A DNA stretch of 64,000 bases from assembly GCA_945888375.1 (NCBI GenBank), contig CAMCZZ010000001.1, positions 62,001 to 126,000 on the forward strand. Direction: 5' to 3'. Positions 5,300 to 12,131 of the stretch are shown piece after piece; position 1 is the stretch's first letter; every line of letters starts with the position of its first letter. Position numbers and translations under genes: made by a program. The notes under the pieces are model-generated. The model saw only the letters and a program-made list of their open reading frames with translations, searched no databases and was not told the origin of the DNA. The stretch is from Akkermansia muciniphila (lineage in GTDB: Bacteria; Verrucomicrobiota; Verrucomicrobiia; Opitutales; Opitutaceae).

Positions 5300-7762
5300 C
5301 TAGAGTTCGTATTGGATCTGGCGGAGCAGATCGGTGACGAGGCGGCGGCCGGCGGGATCGGCGAGCGCCTGGCGCATGGCCTCGTTGGGGTCGAAGTGGA
5401 AGTGGTGGCTCATCGAGACAGCCGGTGCGGCGGCGGGCGCGGCGGATCCGCCGGCCGGGCCGGAGGCGAGATCGGGGACGGCGCCGGCGTTGATCGCATC
5501 GAGCACGCCGTGGCCGCCGACGCGCTGCACGGCGGCGGCCGTCATCACGTGCTCGCCGTTGGAGAGGCGGGCGAAGATCGAGTCGCTCGTGCCGGTGCCG
5601 GGGCCGCTCACCGCGCCGCCCTCGGCGAAGGTCAGGGCCGAGGTGAGGATGGCGGTCTTGGCCATGGCCGCCCCGCTCACCGCCGCGCCGCCGTAGGTCG
5701 CGATGCTGGCGGCGGTGGCGGCCGGCGCCCAGAGCGCGGTCGTGGCCAGGGCGATGGGCGCGAGGGCGGCGACCTGCGCCGCCTGCAGCGCCTTGCCGAA
5801 TACGGCCATGATGATCTGCTGCGTGATCCACTGCGCCACCATGCGCACGAAGCTCTGGATGATCGCCTGCAGCACGCTCGTGCCGATGTTGGCCAGGGCC
5901 TGCGTCCACGTCATGGTCTGGTTGATCAGGCCGGTGAGGGAGGAGCCGATGCCTTGTTCCAGCCCCTGGGCGATGCCCACCACGGCCTGCTGGGCGCGGT
6001 CGGCGGCGTCGGGGATCGAATTGAGGTATTCGACCAGGCCGGCGGTCGCACCCGCGCCGACCGATTGCGGGGCTAGGCCGGCTTGCGCGGCGCCGAGTTG
6101 GCCGTCCTTCGCGCGCAGGTCGTCGATCTGGCGCTGGCCCTCGGGCGTGGGATTGGCCGCCTGGTCCCGTTCCAGCTGGGCGATGCGCTCGGCGATGACC
6201 GCGCGCTCCTTCTCGAGCAGGCGCAACTTCTCCTGGTCGCGGGTCTGGTTGAGCAACAGCTTCGACTGGTCGAGCATGGCCAGGCCGGCGTCGGCCGAGG
6301 CCATGCGGCGGGAGAGTTCTTGCTGCCGCTCCTGTTCGCGGGTCTTGGCGCGGAGGGCGAGGCGCTCCGCCTCGGCCGCGTAGGTGCGCTCCAGCCAGGC
6401 CTCGTCTTCGTCCTGAGCCTTCTTGTCCTCCGCCGTCTGCTGGGCCTTGAGCGCGCGCAGGCGCTCGGCCTGGGCAAATAGTTGCGCGCCCACGTCCACC
6501 CGCGTCCGGGCGGCGGCCAGGCTGTCGTTCTCCTCCGCCGGCATGAGGCTCCGCAGCCGCAGGATTTCCGCCTCGGCGACCGCGATTTGATCCGCGACCG
6601 CGAGGGTGGCGGTGTGCTGGTCCAGCATCTTCGCATCGAGGGCGGCCTGAGCCTCGGCGATCTTGGCGCGGTCCGGGGCCTCCAGCGACGCACGGGCGGC
6701 GGCCTCGGCGGCCGGATCGGCCACCGGGCGGGGCGCGGCGGGGCGCGCCGACGAGGTGCCGGCGTTGTTCTCCGCCGCCATGCTTTCGAGCGCGGCGTTG
6801 ACGTCTCCGAGGCTGCCTTGGCCGCTTACCACCACCGCCACGCCGGCCGCCGCGTTGATCAGGTTTTGGAGACCGTTTTTGTAGCGGTCAAAGCCGTCGA
6901 CCACCGGGACGGCGAGCTTGGCCTTGATGATGGTCCACCGCCGGTCCAGCTCCTCCAGCTTCTGGTTCGCGTCGGCCAGCTGTTTGTTCACGCCGTCTTC
7001 CAGCGCCAGGCCGGAGGAGATCGCGTCGGCGCGCACGTTCTCCAGGCCGAGGGTGCCGAGTTCGCGCAGCTGGTTGATGAGGCGGCCGGTGCCCCGGCCC
7101 AGCAGCGTCTGCGCTGCGGCGGCCGAGCCCGCCGACTCCGCGTGGGCGGCAAGCGCCCGGCCGACCTCGGCCAGGGCCGCGTCCGGAGCCAGCTCGGTCA
7201 GCCGCTGCCAGTCCAGCCCCAGCGCGGCGAAGGCTTCCCGTGCCGGCGCGCTGCCCGACGCCGCCTCGGCGAGGGATTGCCGGAGCTTCAGCATGCTCTG
7301 GGCGACGGCGGCGGCCTTGATGCCCGCCGCGCCGAAGAAGGCGTTGAGCGCCTGGAGCGACGAGGTGGTGACATCGAGCTGCTCTGCCGTGTCCTGCAGC
7401 TCGTCGGCCTGGTTGAGCGCGGTGAAGAAACTGGTGGTGGCGGCGGCGGCCACGCCGAGGGTGGCCGCGACCGGCAAGGCGGATCCGTTCAAGCCCTGCA
7501 TGGCCGCGCCCACCGCCGGGATGTTTCGCACCAGCTCTCCCAGGGCGTTGGACAGCTTGTCGTCGCTGCCGATGGCGGCCAGGGCGGTGCGGGTTTTCAG
7601 GAGACCGGCTTCGAGTTCCTTGATCTTCGCCTTAGCCTCGTCGCTCGTGGCCCCCAGCGTCTTGAGCCGCACGATCTGGCGCTGGAAGTCCGCCTCCATG
7701 GCGCGCAGCTGCCCGAGCTGGGCTTCCACGCTGATCTTGATCTGGAGTTCGTTCGGGGCCAT
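5300..7762 (-). CDS. tail tape measure protein
   Basis: This 820-residue protein sets tail length and is ejected ahead of the DNA. The N-terminal 60 residues form a coiled coil. Hydrophobic Ala/Gly-rich stretches follow near residues 95-125 and 640-740, with long charged coiled coils around residues 370-560, the usual make-up of tape measures. The start at 7762 (protein beginning MAPNELQIK) is chosen because an alternative ATG at 7813 adds a basic, non-conserved-looking leader. The gene lies downstream of the frameshifted chaperones, as is standard in siphophage tails. Confidence 0.85.
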   Translation of the reverse strand: MAPNELQIKISVEAQLGQLRAMEADFQRQIVRLKTLGATSDEAKAKIKELEAGLLKTRTALAAIGSDDKLSNALGELVRNIPAVGAAMQGLNGSALPVAATLGVAAAATTSFFTALNQADELQDTAEQLDVTTSSLQALNAFFGAAGIKAAAVAQSMLKLRQSLAEAASGSAPAREAFAALGLDWQRLTELAPDAALAEVGRALAAHAESAGSAAAAQTLLGRGTGRLINQLRELGTLGLENVRADAISSGLALEDGVNKQLADANQKLEELDRRWTIIKAKLAVPVVDGFDRYKNGLQNLINAAAGVAVVVSGQGSLGDVNAALESMAAENNAGTSSARPAAPRPVADPAAEAAARASLEAPDRAKIAEAQAALDAKMLDQHTATLAVADQIAVAEAEILRLRSLMPAEENDSLAAARTRVDVGAQLFAQAERLRALKAQQTAEDKKAQDEDEAWLERTYAAEAERLALRAKTREQERQQELSRRMASADAGLAMLDQSKLLLNQTRDQEKLRLLEKERAVIAERIAQLERDQAANPTPEGQRQIDDLRAKDGQLGAAQAGLAPQSVGAGATAGLVEYLNSIPDAADRAQQAVVGIAQGLEQGIGSSLTGLINQTMTWTQALANIGTSVLQAIIQSFVRMVAQWITQQIIMAVFGKALQAAQVAALAPIALATTALWAPAATAASIATYGGAAVSGAAMAKTAILTSALTFAEGGAVSGPGTGTSDSIFARLSNGEHVMTAAAVQRVGGHGVLDAINAGAVPDLASGPAGGSAAPAAAPAVSMSHHFHFDPNEAMRQALADPAGRRLVTDLLRQIQYEL

Positions 7763-7773
7763 GGGTTGTTCAA

Positions 7774-7899
7774 ATGGGCGGCACGCTGTTTTTCTTCGGC
7801 ATCTTCGGGGCACTCGCCACCGGTCTGGTCGGCCCCTGTCTGCTCATTTCGCTGGTCGGTGTTTTTGTGCTGAGCCGGCCGCGTTGGGCGAAGTTCTAG
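7774..7899 (+). CDS. possible 41-residue hydrophobic peptide, antisense in the tail operon
   Basis: In the unusually wide gap (133 nt) between the chaperone and tape measure genes, the plus strand encodes a 41-residue peptide. It has one or two hydrophobic segments (MGGTLFFFGIFGALATGLVG, then CLLISLVGVFVL) and a basic C-terminus. No Shine-Dalgarno sequence or promoter is apparent. On the minus strand the same gap holds a 25-codon frame (7771-7848) ending just before the tape measure ATG. Either may be real, or neither. Confidence 0.25.
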   Translation: MGGTLFFFGIFGALATGLVGPCLLISLVGVFVLSRPRWAKF

Positions 7900-8213
7900 G
7901 CCGGGCGGGCCTTGGTCTTGCCGGCGGATCTGCGCCAGCGTTTTCCGGTTTGGCCGGCCTCATCCGGCGGGCGAGCGGCAGCTGCCAGTTCTCGGGCGAG
8001 GGTCTGGGCTCCGGGACCACCGGCGAAGGCGTGGTTCATCGTCACGAGCAGGCTCAGCTGGTCGCGGGCGCGGATGCGGTTGCGCTCGGCGATGAGGCGG
8101 CCGAGGCGCTCGGGGGTGAGGTCGAGGCATCGCTCGTAGTCGCCGCCGCAGAGGCCGAGGGCGGCGGCGTGCTCGACGAGGCGTTCGAGCCGAGCCCAAG
8201 CATCGCCACCATC
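7896..8213 (-). CDS. tail assembly chaperone T-domain, expressed by -1 frameshift
   Basis: This frame has no start of its own but has very high GC at third codon positions and encodes a sensible helical domain of 105 residues. It includes CLDLTPERLGRLIAERNRIR, close to the helical segment of tail chaperone T regions. It lies in the -1 frame relative to the upstream chaperone and overlaps its end. The two frames share a GGGG run at 8213-8216, where a glycyl-tRNA on GGG codon 114 can re-pair with GGG one base back. The predicted fusion is about 219 residues. In lambda-like tails the G and G-T proteins chaperone the tape measure. Confidence 0.75.
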   Translation of the reverse strand, partial: DGGDAWARLERLVEHAAALGLCGGDYERCLDLTPERLGRLIAERNRIRARDQLSLLVTMNHAFAGGPGAQTLARELAAAARPPDEAGQTGKRWRRSAGKTKARPA

Positions 8214-8554
8214 CCCAGCAGCCGCTGGGTCTCCCGCGCCATCTCGAAGGGCCTCACCATCGCCGCGAGTCGCGGGTCGCCCTCGGCCACCGCGCTCGCC
8301 TTCGGAAAATTTAGCTCGATGCAGCGTTTGTACAGCCCGCCGAAGCTCTCCGGCGTGAGCGTGTCCACCCAGTCGAGGGAGCGGCCGGTGCAGAGCGCGG
8401 CCAGATCCGGCCCGGCGACGGCGGCCAGGTGCGTGCAGAAGAGGTAGAGCTGGCGGATCGAGAGCCGCAGCAGCTGGACGGTCTCGCGCCGGCCATCGAG
8501 ATGCTCGACCTCGATGGGCGTGCCGTTGACCAGGGTGTGGGCGGGGGTGGACAT
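8054..8554 (-). CDS. tail assembly chaperone (G-like)
   Basis: The unshifted product is 166 residues. Residues 1-120 look like a folded domain (VEHLDGRRETVQLLRLSIRQ and following). The last 45 residues, downstream of the putative slip site, are low-complexity Ser/Ala/Thr/Pro, as expected where this frame overlaps the T frame. It lies between the fibre genes and the tape measure. It is probably made in excess over the frameshifted form and binds the tape measure before tail tube polymerisation. Confidence 0.78.
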   Translation of the reverse strand: MSTPAHTLVNGTPIEVEHLDGRRETVQLLRLSIRQLYLFCTHLAAVAGPDLAALCTGRSLDWVDTLTPESFGGLYKRCIELNFPKASAVAEGDPRLAAMVRPFEMARETQRLLGMVAMLGLGSNASSSTPPPSASAAATTSDASTSPPSASAASSPSATASAPATS

Positions 8555-9064: not shown

Positions 9065-11137
9065 TTAGCGGCGGGTCCAGTGGAGGTCCCAGTCGAGGGC
9101 GACCGGCCCGGAAAGCGTCCAATGCAGGCGGTCGCCGCTGCTTACCTCGAAGCCGCCGGCCGGCGACAAGGCGACAGTCTGCCATTCTGTGCTGGCGGCG
9201 GTCGTGGCGGTGGCGATGGTCGCCCCGCCGGAGGAGTTGAGGCGCAGGGTGATCGTCTGCGCGGTCGCGGCGGCCTGCTTGATGCGCAAGCCGGTGATCA
9301 GGCCTGTCTCGAACCAGAGATCCACCGACCCGGAGCCGAGCACAAAACCGGTTGCGGTTTGGTTGCCGCGCAGAGGGACCGGCGGCCGGGCGGTCAACGG
9401 CCGGACGCCGGCGGTGCAGAGGCCGCGCAGGCGGTTCGGGCCGTGGTCGAGGAGTTGGGCGGTGCGGGTGATCTCGGGCTGGAAGAGCGCGCCAAGGGAC
9501 GAGACCGTGATTGTCTTGATATAGTAGATGGTTCCTTCATTAAGGTCTGAGCGAAACGCACCTGCTGCATTGCACGGAGAAATGCGGAGCGGGCAATAGG
9601 TTGCCTCCGCCCGAATAGAAAATGGGAAAACACAATTTACGGTTGTGCCCTCTGCTACGGCCACGGGTGACGCAACAGTTGTTTGAGTAGATAGGGTCGC
9701 ATAAAAATGCGTTATGCCAGAGCCAACTGGATTGTGTATGCGGGCACGAATGAGACTTTGACTACCTATTGAAACAAGAGAGTTTAGCGTGCTGTCCCGT
9801 GAAATTGAAAGACTGCCTGCTCCTGCTGTTGTGCGCTCTACTTTTAGCCAGTCATCTTCTCCAGCCACACCGTCTATATTTCCGGTTAGCGTGTTTGTTC
9901 CTCCCGACCAAGTGTCCGCACTTGCCGTGAAAATGGAAGTATAGCTAGCCACCATGCTCCCGCCCATCCGGTCCTGCGGCAGGAGGGCGTTGGTCTGGAC
10001 CATCGTGGCGATCTCGGCGGCAGAGAGGGCGCGGTTAAGGAGCGTCGGCGCGCCCAAGGCGCCGGGATAAAATGCGTTTGAAAACATCGTGCCGAGAACG
10101 AACGATGCATTGGGAATCGAAGCCGTCCACGCAGGGGCCGATCCGAGCGTCGCCTCGGAGGGCAAGGCAACTGCGGTTTCGTTCCAGCAAACTGCGATGA
10201 CTCCTGCCGTGCGCGTGATCGTGAGAATCCCCGTCTCGCCTACGAAGAGGTTGTAAAAGTCGGCGGCGGCTATGGAATACTGACGATAATTGGTATCGCT
10301 TCCGATGCGAATCCTCAGAGCGTCCGCCGGATCAAGGCGCACGGTGAAACTAACCCCCGTCCCATAACCGTTCACTGAGCCGACATTATCGGAAAGCATC
10401 CAGATGCCGTTAGTCTGCCCGCTTCGGCGGGTCAGGCCGTGGATGGGGACGATGACCGTGAAATCACTGGTGCCGATAACTGCGGCTTCGGGCGTGTCCC
10501 AATAAACTCGCTGCGCGGCAGTCGCGCCGTCGCTGTAGAGCATATCGATGGCCGCGCGGCTGGCCGCGACGGGATCCACCTTTGCGGCCAGCGCGGCCTT
10601 GTTCGCCGCCGGGGTCACCGCGCGGTCCGTCGCGGTGCCGGTGATCGTCTCCGCATCGCTCGCCGCCGTCACGGTGATGGTGCGGTTGGCGGAGAGGTCT
10701 CCTCCGCCGCTTGCCAGGCCGGAGGCCGCCACCGTGCGTGCCGTGCTCACTGCGTCGGTCAGCCCGGAGGCGGCTACCGTCGTCGGCCGGCCGGTGATGC
10801 TCGCCCAGGCGGGCGTCACGGTGGTCACGCTCGCGCCGGTGATCAGGCCCTTGGCGTTGACCGTCACCACCGGGATCTGCGTGGCGGAGCCGAAGGTGCC
10901 GACGTTGCTGTTGACGGTGGCGAGCGTGGTCGCGGCGGCGCCGGCGCTGGTGGTGATGTCGCCGGTGAAGGCGGGCAGGCGAGCAGTCGGGAGCGTGCCG
11001 GAGGTGAGATCGGTCGCGCTGCGGGTAGTGAAGTCCGCGAGCGAGCTGCCGGTCTTGGAGACATCGGTCCAGGGGATCACCACCTGGGCGAGGGCGGTCG
11101 AGGCCGCGAGGCTGAGGAGAAGGAGGAAGCGTTTCAT
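9065..11137 (-). CDS. tail fibre protein with N-terminal signal peptide
   Basis: A 690-residue fibre-like protein. Residues 1-18 are a Sec signal peptide (MKRFLLLLSLAASTALAQ). Residues 20-190 are Thr/Ala/Gly-rich shaft sequence with phage-fibre motifs (GDITTSAGAAATTL; TVNAKGLITGASV). Residues of roughly 195-385 look like a LamG/concanavalin-type jelly roll ending in LLNRALSAAEIATM. Further beta-rich modules, possibly carbohydrate-binding, follow to the C-terminus. The DNA for the middle (about 9,480-10,400) is visibly AT-richer than both flanks, pointing to exchange of the receptor-binding part. Adhesion to host polysaccharide is inferred. Confidence 0.75.
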   Translation of the reverse strand: MKRFLLLLSLAASTALAQVVIPWTDVSKTGSSLADFTTRSATDLTSGTLPTARLPAFTGDITTSAGAAATTLATVNSNVGTFGSATQIPVVTVNAKGLITGASVTTVTPAWASITGRPTTVAASGLTDAVSTARTVAASGLASGGGDLSANRTITVTAASDAETITGTATDRAVTPAANKAALAAKVDPVAASRAAIDMLYSDGATAAQRVYWDTPEAAVIGTSDFTVIVPIHGLTRRSGQTNGIWMLSDNVGSVNGYGTGVSFTVRLDPADALRIRIGSDTNYRQYSIAAADFYNLFVGETGILTITRTAGVIAVCWNETAVALPSEATLGSAPAWTASIPNASFVLGTMFSNAFYPGALGAPTLLNRALSAAEIATMVQTNALLPQDRMGGSMVASYTSIFTASADTWSGGTNTLTGNIDGVAGEDDWLKVERTTAGAGSLSISRDSTLNSLVSIGSQSLIRARIHNPVGSGITHFYATLSTQTTVASPVAVAEGTTVNCVFPFSIRAEATYCPLRISPCNAAGAFRSDLNEGTIYYIKTITVSSLGALFQPEITRTAQLLDHGPNRLRGLCTAGVRPLTARPPVPLRGNQTATGFVLGSGSVDLWFETGLITGLRIKQAAATAQTITLRLNSSGGATIATATTAASTEWQTVALSPAGGFEVSSGDRLHWTLSGPVALDWDLHWTRR

Positions 11138-11177: not shown

Positions 11178-12014
11178 TTAGACGAGCTGCACGATGAGGT
11201 TGGCGGTGAGGAAGGACCCGGCCTTGGTGGAGCCCACCTGGGTCACCTTCAGGCGCACCAGGGTGTGGATCACCAGCGGCAGCGGGGTGACGAAGGTCAC
11301 GTCGGCCGTGCTCGCGCCGGCGGGCAGGGTGGCGGTGCGGCCGAGGCTCACGCCATCGTTGTCCACCACCTCGATGATCACGTCCGCGCCGGTCGGCGCG
11401 TCCTGGCAGGCGAGCTGCACGCCCTTGAGCGCGACCGCCGCCGGGGCTTTGTAGAAACCGAAAAGCTGGCCCGCCGTGAGGCGGCCCGCGAAGAGAAATG
11501 AGGGAGTGTGCATGGTGTCGTCGGTGGGAGTGGGTATGGCGGGGTCAAAGCCCACCAGCTGCGGAACGTTTTGCGTGGCGGCGGCGGCCAGCGGGGCGGC
11601 CAGCGCCGAGGGCGCCACGCCGGTGCCGGCGAAGGGCGCCAGCGCCACCGCCTCGGGCGCGGAGGCCGTGCCCGCCACCGAGGGCGGCGTGATCGGGCTC
11701 GGGGCCAGGTTGCTCGGGGTGAAGGCCGCCACCGCCACCGCCGTGGGCGGGGAGCCCGTGCCGGCGTAGGCGGGGAGCGATACCGCCGAGGGCGCGGTGT
11801 TGCTCGGGGCGAAGGCGGCGAGCGCCACCGCCTCGGGCGAGGAGGCCGTGCCGGCGACCGAGGGCGGGGTGATCGCAGTCGGGGCGGTGTTGCTCGGCGT
11901 GAAGGCCGCGCCCGCCACCGCCACCGGTGCGGAGCCGGTGCCGGCAAAGGCCGCGACGCTGATCGCCGAGGGCGCGGTGTTGCTGAACGCAAAGTTGAGC
12001 GCGGCGGAGGGCAT
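11178..12014 (-). CDS. repeat-containing fibre / appendage protein
   Basis: A 278-residue protein. Residues 1-135 are about four imperfect 29-residue repeats built on S-N-T-A-P-S-A and V-A-G-T-A-S units, low in charge and rich in Ala, Pro, Thr and Ser, and probably a fibrous shaft. Residues 140-278 form a beta-rich globular domain. It lies between the tail tube and the tail fibre, which suggests a tail or baseplate appendage. I do not recognise a named family. Confidence 0.65.
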   Translation of the reverse strand: MPSAALNFAFSNTAPSAISVAAFAGTGSAPVAVAGAAFTPSNTAPTAITPPSVAGTASSPEAVALAAFAPSNTAPSAVSLPAYAGTGSPPTAVAVAAFTPSNLAPSPITPPSVAGTASAPEAVALAPFAGTGVAPSALAAPLAAAATQNVPQLVGFDPAIPTPTDDTMHTPSFLFAGRLTAGQLFGFYKAPAAVALKGVQLACQDAPTGADVIIEVVDNDGVSLGRTATLPAGASTADVTFVTPLPLVIHTLVRLKVTQVGSTKAGSFLTANLIVQLV

Positions 12015-12037
12015 GGGGAGTGACGGTATCGAGTATC

Positions 12038-12115
12038 GAGTAGCGGGTAGCGAGTAGGGCGGAAGTGGCGGGAGCGGGAGCAGGGCGCGGCAGAAATGCT
12101 CGCTACCCGCTACTC
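12038..12115. repeat. 17-bp perfect inverted repeat with internal 7-bp periodicity
   Basis: The sequence gagtagcgggtagcgag at 12,038-12,054 is exactly inverted at 12,099-12,115, with a 44-bp loop. The right arm is followed by a second partial copy (12,117-12,129). It lies in the 117-bp gap between the tail tube and fibre genes. Transcribed leftwards it would fold into a strong stem after the tail tube stop, so it may limit read-through or stabilise the message. No T-run follows. Confidence 0.8.
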
Positions 12116-12131
12116 ACTACCCGCTACTCCG

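Follow-up and report, generated by a model that had tools for sequence, protein, structure and literature searches.

Two long reading frames overlap on the minus strand upstream of the tape measure gene in the window, i.e., the whole stretch of 64,000 nucleotides analyzed here, which raises the question of whether ribosomes pass from the first frame into the second and, if so, on which nucleotides. The source genome, taken to belong to the Opitutaceae (Verrucomicrobiota), is a draft (3.22 Mb in 39 contigs), and, judging from its genes, we read the region as a Mu-like prophage whose tape measure is of the lambda type and whose late genes lie on the minus strand. A Mu portal is encoded (Pfam PF06074, 1.7e-69), an AAA/TniB-type ATPase occupies the place of MuB in a Pfam scan, and the prophage presumably transposes. 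The tape measure protein (5300 to 7762, minus strand) matches PHROG tape-measure families (e.g., phrog_12798, 2.9e-19); its match to Pfam Tape_meas_lam_C (7e-4) falls below that family's curated cutoff. In the relatives introduced below, the longest open reading frame (ORF) after the second frame was a tape measure gene in nine of ten tested and a nuclease gene in L041. Elsewhere among the late genes, an imperfect inverted repeat at 12026 to 12129 (GAGTAGCGGGTAGCGAGTAG / CTACTCACTACCCGCTACTC, 95% over 20 nt), located between two of them, may be a mobile or REP-like hairpin. By eye, the N-terminal half of the product encoded at 11178 to 12014 (minus strand) consists of several repeats of about 30 residues, and the gene at 9065 to 11137 has an A+T-richer core (9550 to 10400) that is possibly a recently exchanged tail-fiber-like domain.

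The zero frame (8054 to 8554, minus strand) encodes a putative G-like tail assembly chaperone of 166 amino acids with a TGA stop, so named from the alignment of relatives and from PHROG 1442. The -1 frame is open from 8564 to a TAG at 7898 to 7896, where the T frame ends just before the tape measure gene; the stop upstream of it lies 252 nt before the heptamer discussed below. As an extension of G, it would contribute 136 codons plus the stop (7896 to 8306, minus strand), consisting of a low-confidence linker followed by a helical T domain, of which the part conserved among relatives (WARLERLVE... onward, including the stop) spans 7896 to 8198 (minus strand). The first-pass annotation had described a clean -1 frame without its own start, and both its coordinates and its frames proved right. 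From the heptamer to the T motif at 8198, the -1 frame of the window contains no ATG, GTG, or TTG. The first in-frame starts, GTG at 8045 and ATG at 8039, are both located downstream of the G stop. While their position just after that stop could favor a separately made T, started internally or by reinitiation and never fused to G, neither codon is accompanied by a Shine-Dalgarno-like sequence, and initiation at either would cost about half of T. Of 16 loci examined, 14 have no start codon ahead of the T motif; the other two, L041 and L047, have a TTG, in neither case with a Shine-Dalgarno-like sequence. We therefore rejected an internal start for T, and consider separate synthesis very improbable indeed.

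Within the overlap, the first-pass annotation had pointed to a GGGG run (8213 to 8216, minus strand; CTG GGG ATG in the zero frame, CT GGG GAT in the -1 frame) as a slip site taking the place of a lambda-type heptamer. However, a canonical X_XXY_YYZ heptamer that the annotation did not mention, A_AAT_TTT (8306 to 8312, minus strand; zero-frame codons CTA AAT TTT at 8314 to 8306), sits in the zero frame inside the same overlap, 90 nt upstream of the run. AAATTTT occurs once in the window against 1.33 times expected from composition, so it is the phase and the conservation of the heptamer that matter, not its rarity. Across 4492 codons, the ten other late genes of the window have eight G_GGG in frame and five in-frame canonical heptamers, AAATTTT not being among the five. 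In these ten genes, A-ending codons account for 213 of 4482, CTA for 12 of 467 Leu codons, AAT for 16 of 121 Asn codons, and TTT for 30 of 139 Phe codons. Transcriptional slippage was rejected for this site, its runs of three A and four T being judged too short.

Slip propensities have been assayed systematically in Escherichia coli, and in the sections of that study used here, UUY codons and R_RR.U_UU.Y heptamers are shift-prone, the latter as exceptions with high shiftiness (PMC4066793). The same sections list 18 motifs for a genome search, chosen by a negative z-score and by more than 0.10% frameshifting without a stimulator in E. coli; A_AA.U_UU.N falls outside those 18, and C_CC.U_UU.U and C_CC.U_UU.A fall inside (PMC4066793). 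The signal from G_GGG is there ascribed to probable Shine-Dalgarno-directed initiation rather than to frameshifting (PMC4066793). By analogy, these data favor the heptamer over the GGGG run, although the host here is not E. coli. A literature search combining AAATTTT or AAAUUUU with frameshifting returned no use of this heptamer in a tail chaperone; a paper on Wolbachia prophages mentions AAATTTT (PMC10299305).

Relatives were collected to compare the candidate sites. In a first search of 200 genomes of the family at E <= 0.01, the N part matched 13 genomes and the T part 17, in each case including the window's own genome and several weak matches. Both parts were clearly matched in G164, G011, and G014 (loci L004, L005, and L007), where the two frames again differ by -1. 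CTA AAT TTT is common to these first relatives, and GTA, CAA, or GAA precedes AAT TTT in others; at the position of the GGGG run, L004 has GGG and L005 has nothing. A wider set, drawn from viral contigs, from GTDB genomes, and from broader searches of genomes, brought the entries to 54 loci. Removing eight of them (a UvrC-like false match, L080, and seven copies that were truncated or near-identical) left 46 distinct loci, window included, which were aligned on an invariant Asn. Repeats from the same place were entered once (L016, L038, L042, L049, L051 to L058, L062, L067, L081, L086 to L088, L102, etc.), and N-part matches with E > 0.001 (L011 to L014), weak T-only matches, and one match without a locus were left out. 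The closest relative of G, L048, is 78% identical over the aligned part; L085, from a genome of the window's own genus, encodes a protein identical to that of L048 over 170 aligned residues.

The -1 frame remains open for at least 80 nt past the G stop in 42 of the 46 loci. L071 and L079 have no long -1 frame, and T may be separate or lost in them; in L099, the frame continues for only 32 nt past the stop; and L006 is cut by the end of its contig. In-frame G_GGG at 25 to 40 codons after the invariant Asn is found in only 6 of the 46, window included. Where the first-pass annotation had looked to relatives for conservation of overlap and G run alike, the overlap is thus conserved and the run is not, and with the conserved canonical heptamer 90 nt upstream, the run does not hold as a replacement for a heptamer.

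The run nevertheless has points in its favor as a site at which a single Gly-tRNA would re-pair from GGG to GGG, giving a GT that keeps nearly all of the folded part of G. It is present in the right phase, the conserved part of the zero frame ends and that of the -1 frame starts nearby, and L048 has an in-frame G_GGG two codons further on. Moreover, L060, L061, L047, and L063 have G_GGG 30 to 37 codons after the Asn, and L060 and L063 do so without a canonical heptamer. Against these stand the 40 of 46 loci that have no in-frame G_GGG in that stretch, the probable initiation signal in E. coli (PMC4066793), and the conserved heptamer, which slippage at the run would leave unexplained. L047 also speaks against the run: reading in its zero frame terminates just past its own run, 114 nt downstream of the heptamer and ahead of the T motif at 168 nt, so that any shift there has to come earlier. 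Compared with L041 and L043, L047 carries an insertion between heptamer and T motif, with the zero frame ending early and the -1 frame staying open. We rejected GGGG as the main site and regard slippage on it in the window as quite improbable. A shift motif close to where T begins (W[DE]xLxRL) was likewise rejected: the TGGGA that is frequent there represents the Trp codon of the -1 frame, and no common motif was seen by eye.

The heptamer behaves differently from the run. An in-frame canonical heptamer lies at codons -1 to +4 of the invariant Asn in 38 of the 46 distinct loci: 31 are A_AAT_TTY (24 AAATTTT and 7 AAATTTC), five are C_CCT_TTW (4 CCCTTTT and 1 CCCTTTA), and two are T_TTC_CCT (both TTTCCCT). 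Control codons in the same frames yielded three heptamers in 5226 (1 in 2703 upstream and 2 in 2523 downstream); a binomial P value for this conservation would be overstated because the loci are related, and the contrast itself is the point. The place is nearly kept where the motif differs, the C_CCT_TTW relatives having theirs three codons on; in L065, AAATTTT comes two codons past the aligned Asn, and in L070, TTTAAAC is present alongside CCCTTTT. Thirty loci have A_AAT_TTY exactly on the Asn; the codon just before it encodes L in 18 of them, I in five, Q in four, V in two, and E in one, yet ends in A in all 30. In a codon alignment of ten sequences, all 45 pairs agree in the Asn codon and likewise in the Phe codon, and nine of the ten sequences have an A-ending codon ahead of the Asn. 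As far as these alignments can tell, conservation acts on the nucleotides and not on the protein, since the residue before Asn varies while its wobble A is kept.

Eight of the 46 loci have no canonical heptamer at the site. Three of these keep AAT TTT and with it at least T_TTT (L039, G_AAT_TTT; L060, C_AAT_TTT; L071, TTG AAT TTT); in L063, L064, L079, L096, and L101, T_TTT is not kept. An ELNRP/EINRP/ELNDP-type sequence occupies the site in L063, L064, L096, and L101, which have no canonical heptamer yet show a long -1 frame. These eight loci, together with the loss of a conserved zero-frame segment from a GT made at the heptamer, could be taken to mean that the shift occurs elsewhere in the overlap or at relative-dependent places, A_AAT_TTY being kept for pausing or for cotranslational folding at Asn-Phe. 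What is kept, however, is exactly X_XXY_YYZ, down to the third base of a codon that encodes different amino acids in different loci, and where A_AAT_TTY is replaced in other relatives, another canonical heptamer is found within three codons; we would give this possibility only a slim chance.

Bounds on the position come from stop codons. A stop in the -1 frame lies 0 nt before the Asn position in L036 and 3 nt before it in L039, L063, L066, L072, and L073, so in these six relatives the shift must occur at or after the Asn. Among the six, L039 and L063 are without a canonical heptamer, and L073 has its heptamer three codons on.

Substitution patterns indicate which frame is under selection. Between the window and L048, substitutions at zero-frame positions 1, 2, and 3 number 4, 4, and 15 before the site; 8, 10, and 8 over the next 90 nt; 5, 10, and 7 between +96 and the stop of G; and, past that stop, 6, 16, and 3, the last being the third-position bias of the -1 frame. 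Beyond the G stop, position 2 is the largest class in nine of nine pairs tested, with a clear excess in L041/L044 (10, 31, 13), L041/L047 (4, 22, 3), and L076/L100 (22, 47, 29) and a small one in divergent pairs such as L093/L094 (23, 30, 29). Read from these counts, the selected frame switches from zero to -1 across the overlap. Such frame-specific selection, along with the 42 of 46 loci in which the -1 frame continues at least 80 nt past the G stop, leaves virtually no room for a sequencing error or a decayed prophage gene, an explanation that the 39-contig draft could otherwise have invited, unless every relative carries the same error.

Downstream of the heptamer, after a 6-nt spacer, a hairpin is predicted at 8265 to 8299 (minus strand; -22.5 kcal/mol) that is a candidate stimulator. 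All 16 loci compared have a hairpin at the published spacing of 4 to 10 nt behind the heptamer, but so do 105 of 160 control positions in these genes, which are GC-rich. Compared with synonymous shuffles, the mean z was -1.37 over 14 loci (12 negative) and 0.02 over 139 control windows; the hairpin of the window itself was no more stable than its shuffles (z +0.19). By eye, the pairing of the helix differs between relatives, with two registers that are offset by three nt. From these predictions, a stimulatory hairpin is likely for the family, and that of the window is a candidate only.

Slippage at the heptamer would yield, besides the 166-residue G, a GT of 83 + 136 = 219 residues that shares G residues 1 to 83. 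An AlphaFold2 model of G (pLDDT 73.8) has a confident core to about residue 100, helices at 68 to 91 and 94 to 118, and a low-confidence Ser/Ala/Pro-rich tail; that the zero frame turns rich in these residues past the GGGG run, as the first-pass annotation had noted, is borne out by the translation. In the model of the -1 part, a low-confidence linker of about 33 residues precedes the helices. The predicted helix 68 to 91 contains the slip point, so a shift at the heptamer would cut G inside a helix, and GT would be without the last helix of G; the conserved zero-frame stretch DPxxAA would also be left out. From slip site to G stop there are 85 codons in the window, 38 to 86 in 16 loci, and 24 to 138 in all 46.

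The chaperone identity is proposed from gene order, the frameshift, weak matches to PHROG 1442, and a weak resemblance to YqbN and 3fgx. G of the window matches phrog_1442 (tail assembly chaperone) at E 0.73, and of five family members, three reach E <= 1 against it, the best of them 8.3e-4. A Pfam scan gave no match for G or T of the window and, in one relative each, DUF4174 and DUF6631 (about 2e-3). The best VIA-align row for the G model was 3klu (YqbN; Z 5.2, rmsd 6.3, 82 aligned), beside 3fgx (Z 5.2, rmsd 4.9, 84 aligned), both in the range of common arrangements. Foldseek with the G model found nothing at E <= 0.001 in PDB or BFVD; several BFVD rows named tail assembly chaperone or frameshift protein G appeared at E 0.027 and weaker, and the best row of any name (E 3e-3) was unnamed. 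A fold search with the T model gave no informative match, and a tblastn search with the G proteins of the window and L039 and the matched part of that of L066 gave none in 50,697 phage records.

In summary, we favor, with a probability of roughly 0.87, a reading in which the two frames are the G and T parts of the chaperone gene of a Mu-like prophage and a -1 slip at A_AAU_UUU gives GT, probably assisted by the hairpin. The programmed -1 frameshift in a G/GT-type chaperone pair upstream of the tape measure, as the first-pass annotation had proposed, is well supported by the heptamer and by the frames of the relatives. The frames, the heptamer, its conservation, the change of selected frame, and the gene order were observed directly; from these we infer slippage and its efficiency, the role of the hairpin, and the chaperone function. 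The -1 frameshift is very probably located at AAATTTT. The majority of ribosomes would read G to its stop, producing 166 amino acids. In a minority, the Asn-tRNA (on AAU) and Phe-tRNA (on UUU) at 8312 to 8306 would slip back one base together and re-pair with AAA and UUU, and reading would resume in the -1 frame from UCC. The resulting 219-residue GT would join G residues 1 to 83 to a flexible linker and the T domain, with the junction ...CIELNF|SEGER.... The hairpin, about 6 nt downstream, would probably assist. By analogy with lambda, G might coat the tape measure and GT recruit the tail tube protein.

We further suggest, at somewhat less than even odds, that across Opitutales prophages the slip site is set mid-fold on the invariant Asn, making G and GT isoforms with alternative endings (an extra helix and a Ser/Ala/Pro tail in G, a linker and T in GT), and that the motifs turn over (A_AAU_UUY, C_CCU_UUW, U_UUC_CCU) while the position, to within about three codons, is fixed by protein architecture. 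A single limited literature search on ribosomal frameshifting in phages of Verrucomicrobiota found no paper, and the present locus adds prophages of Opitutales (Verrucomicrobiota) to those with a G/GT frameshift. It also offers a simple annotation rule for tail chaperones of this kind, as well as a natural set of slip sites that are homologous but differ in their heptamers, and the early slip, if real, tests the need for the C-terminal part of G in GT.

The slippery heptamer of lambda is GGGAAAG; here, the proposed one is A_AAT_TTT, and, unlike in lambda, a conserved zero-frame stretch would be omitted from GT. The likeness to lambda, as described in the part of the source used, lies in a gene before the tape measure, the -1 direction, and a G accompanied by a longer GT (PMC5009743). 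In lambda, the shift takes place near the 3' end of G (PMC5009743), whereas the site described here precedes the G stop by 85 codons, so that G and GT would differ in their C-terminal parts; in addition, G and T of the window have no Pfam match to a lambda-type G family, and the PHROG chaperone match stands at only E 0.73. Bacterial IS elements that shift by -1 on U_UUU/C or on a heptamer share the slippage principle and the hairpin rule of 4 to 10 nt, but theirs are transposase genes, and the sections used do not name A_AAU_UUU as an IS motif (PMC4066793). Phage Mu has in common the Mu-type portal and overlapping tail assembly genes, for which the excerpts used report a shift of -2 (PMC2628397, PMC4378225) rather than the -1 shift proposed here. 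PaMx73, a Mu-like siphophage of Pseudomonas aeruginosa, has, according to the excerpt used, a predicted -1 slip at T TTT TTC in core ORFs 35/36, 43 codons before the stop (PMC4378225); the two share a Mu-like phage, a siphovirus-type tail, and a predicted -1 heptamer slip, and they are set apart, by description and not by sequence comparison, by another heptamer and a later position. The G/GT kind itself is known, and the window adds to it a well-supported member whose heptamer lies unusually early and is held in position.
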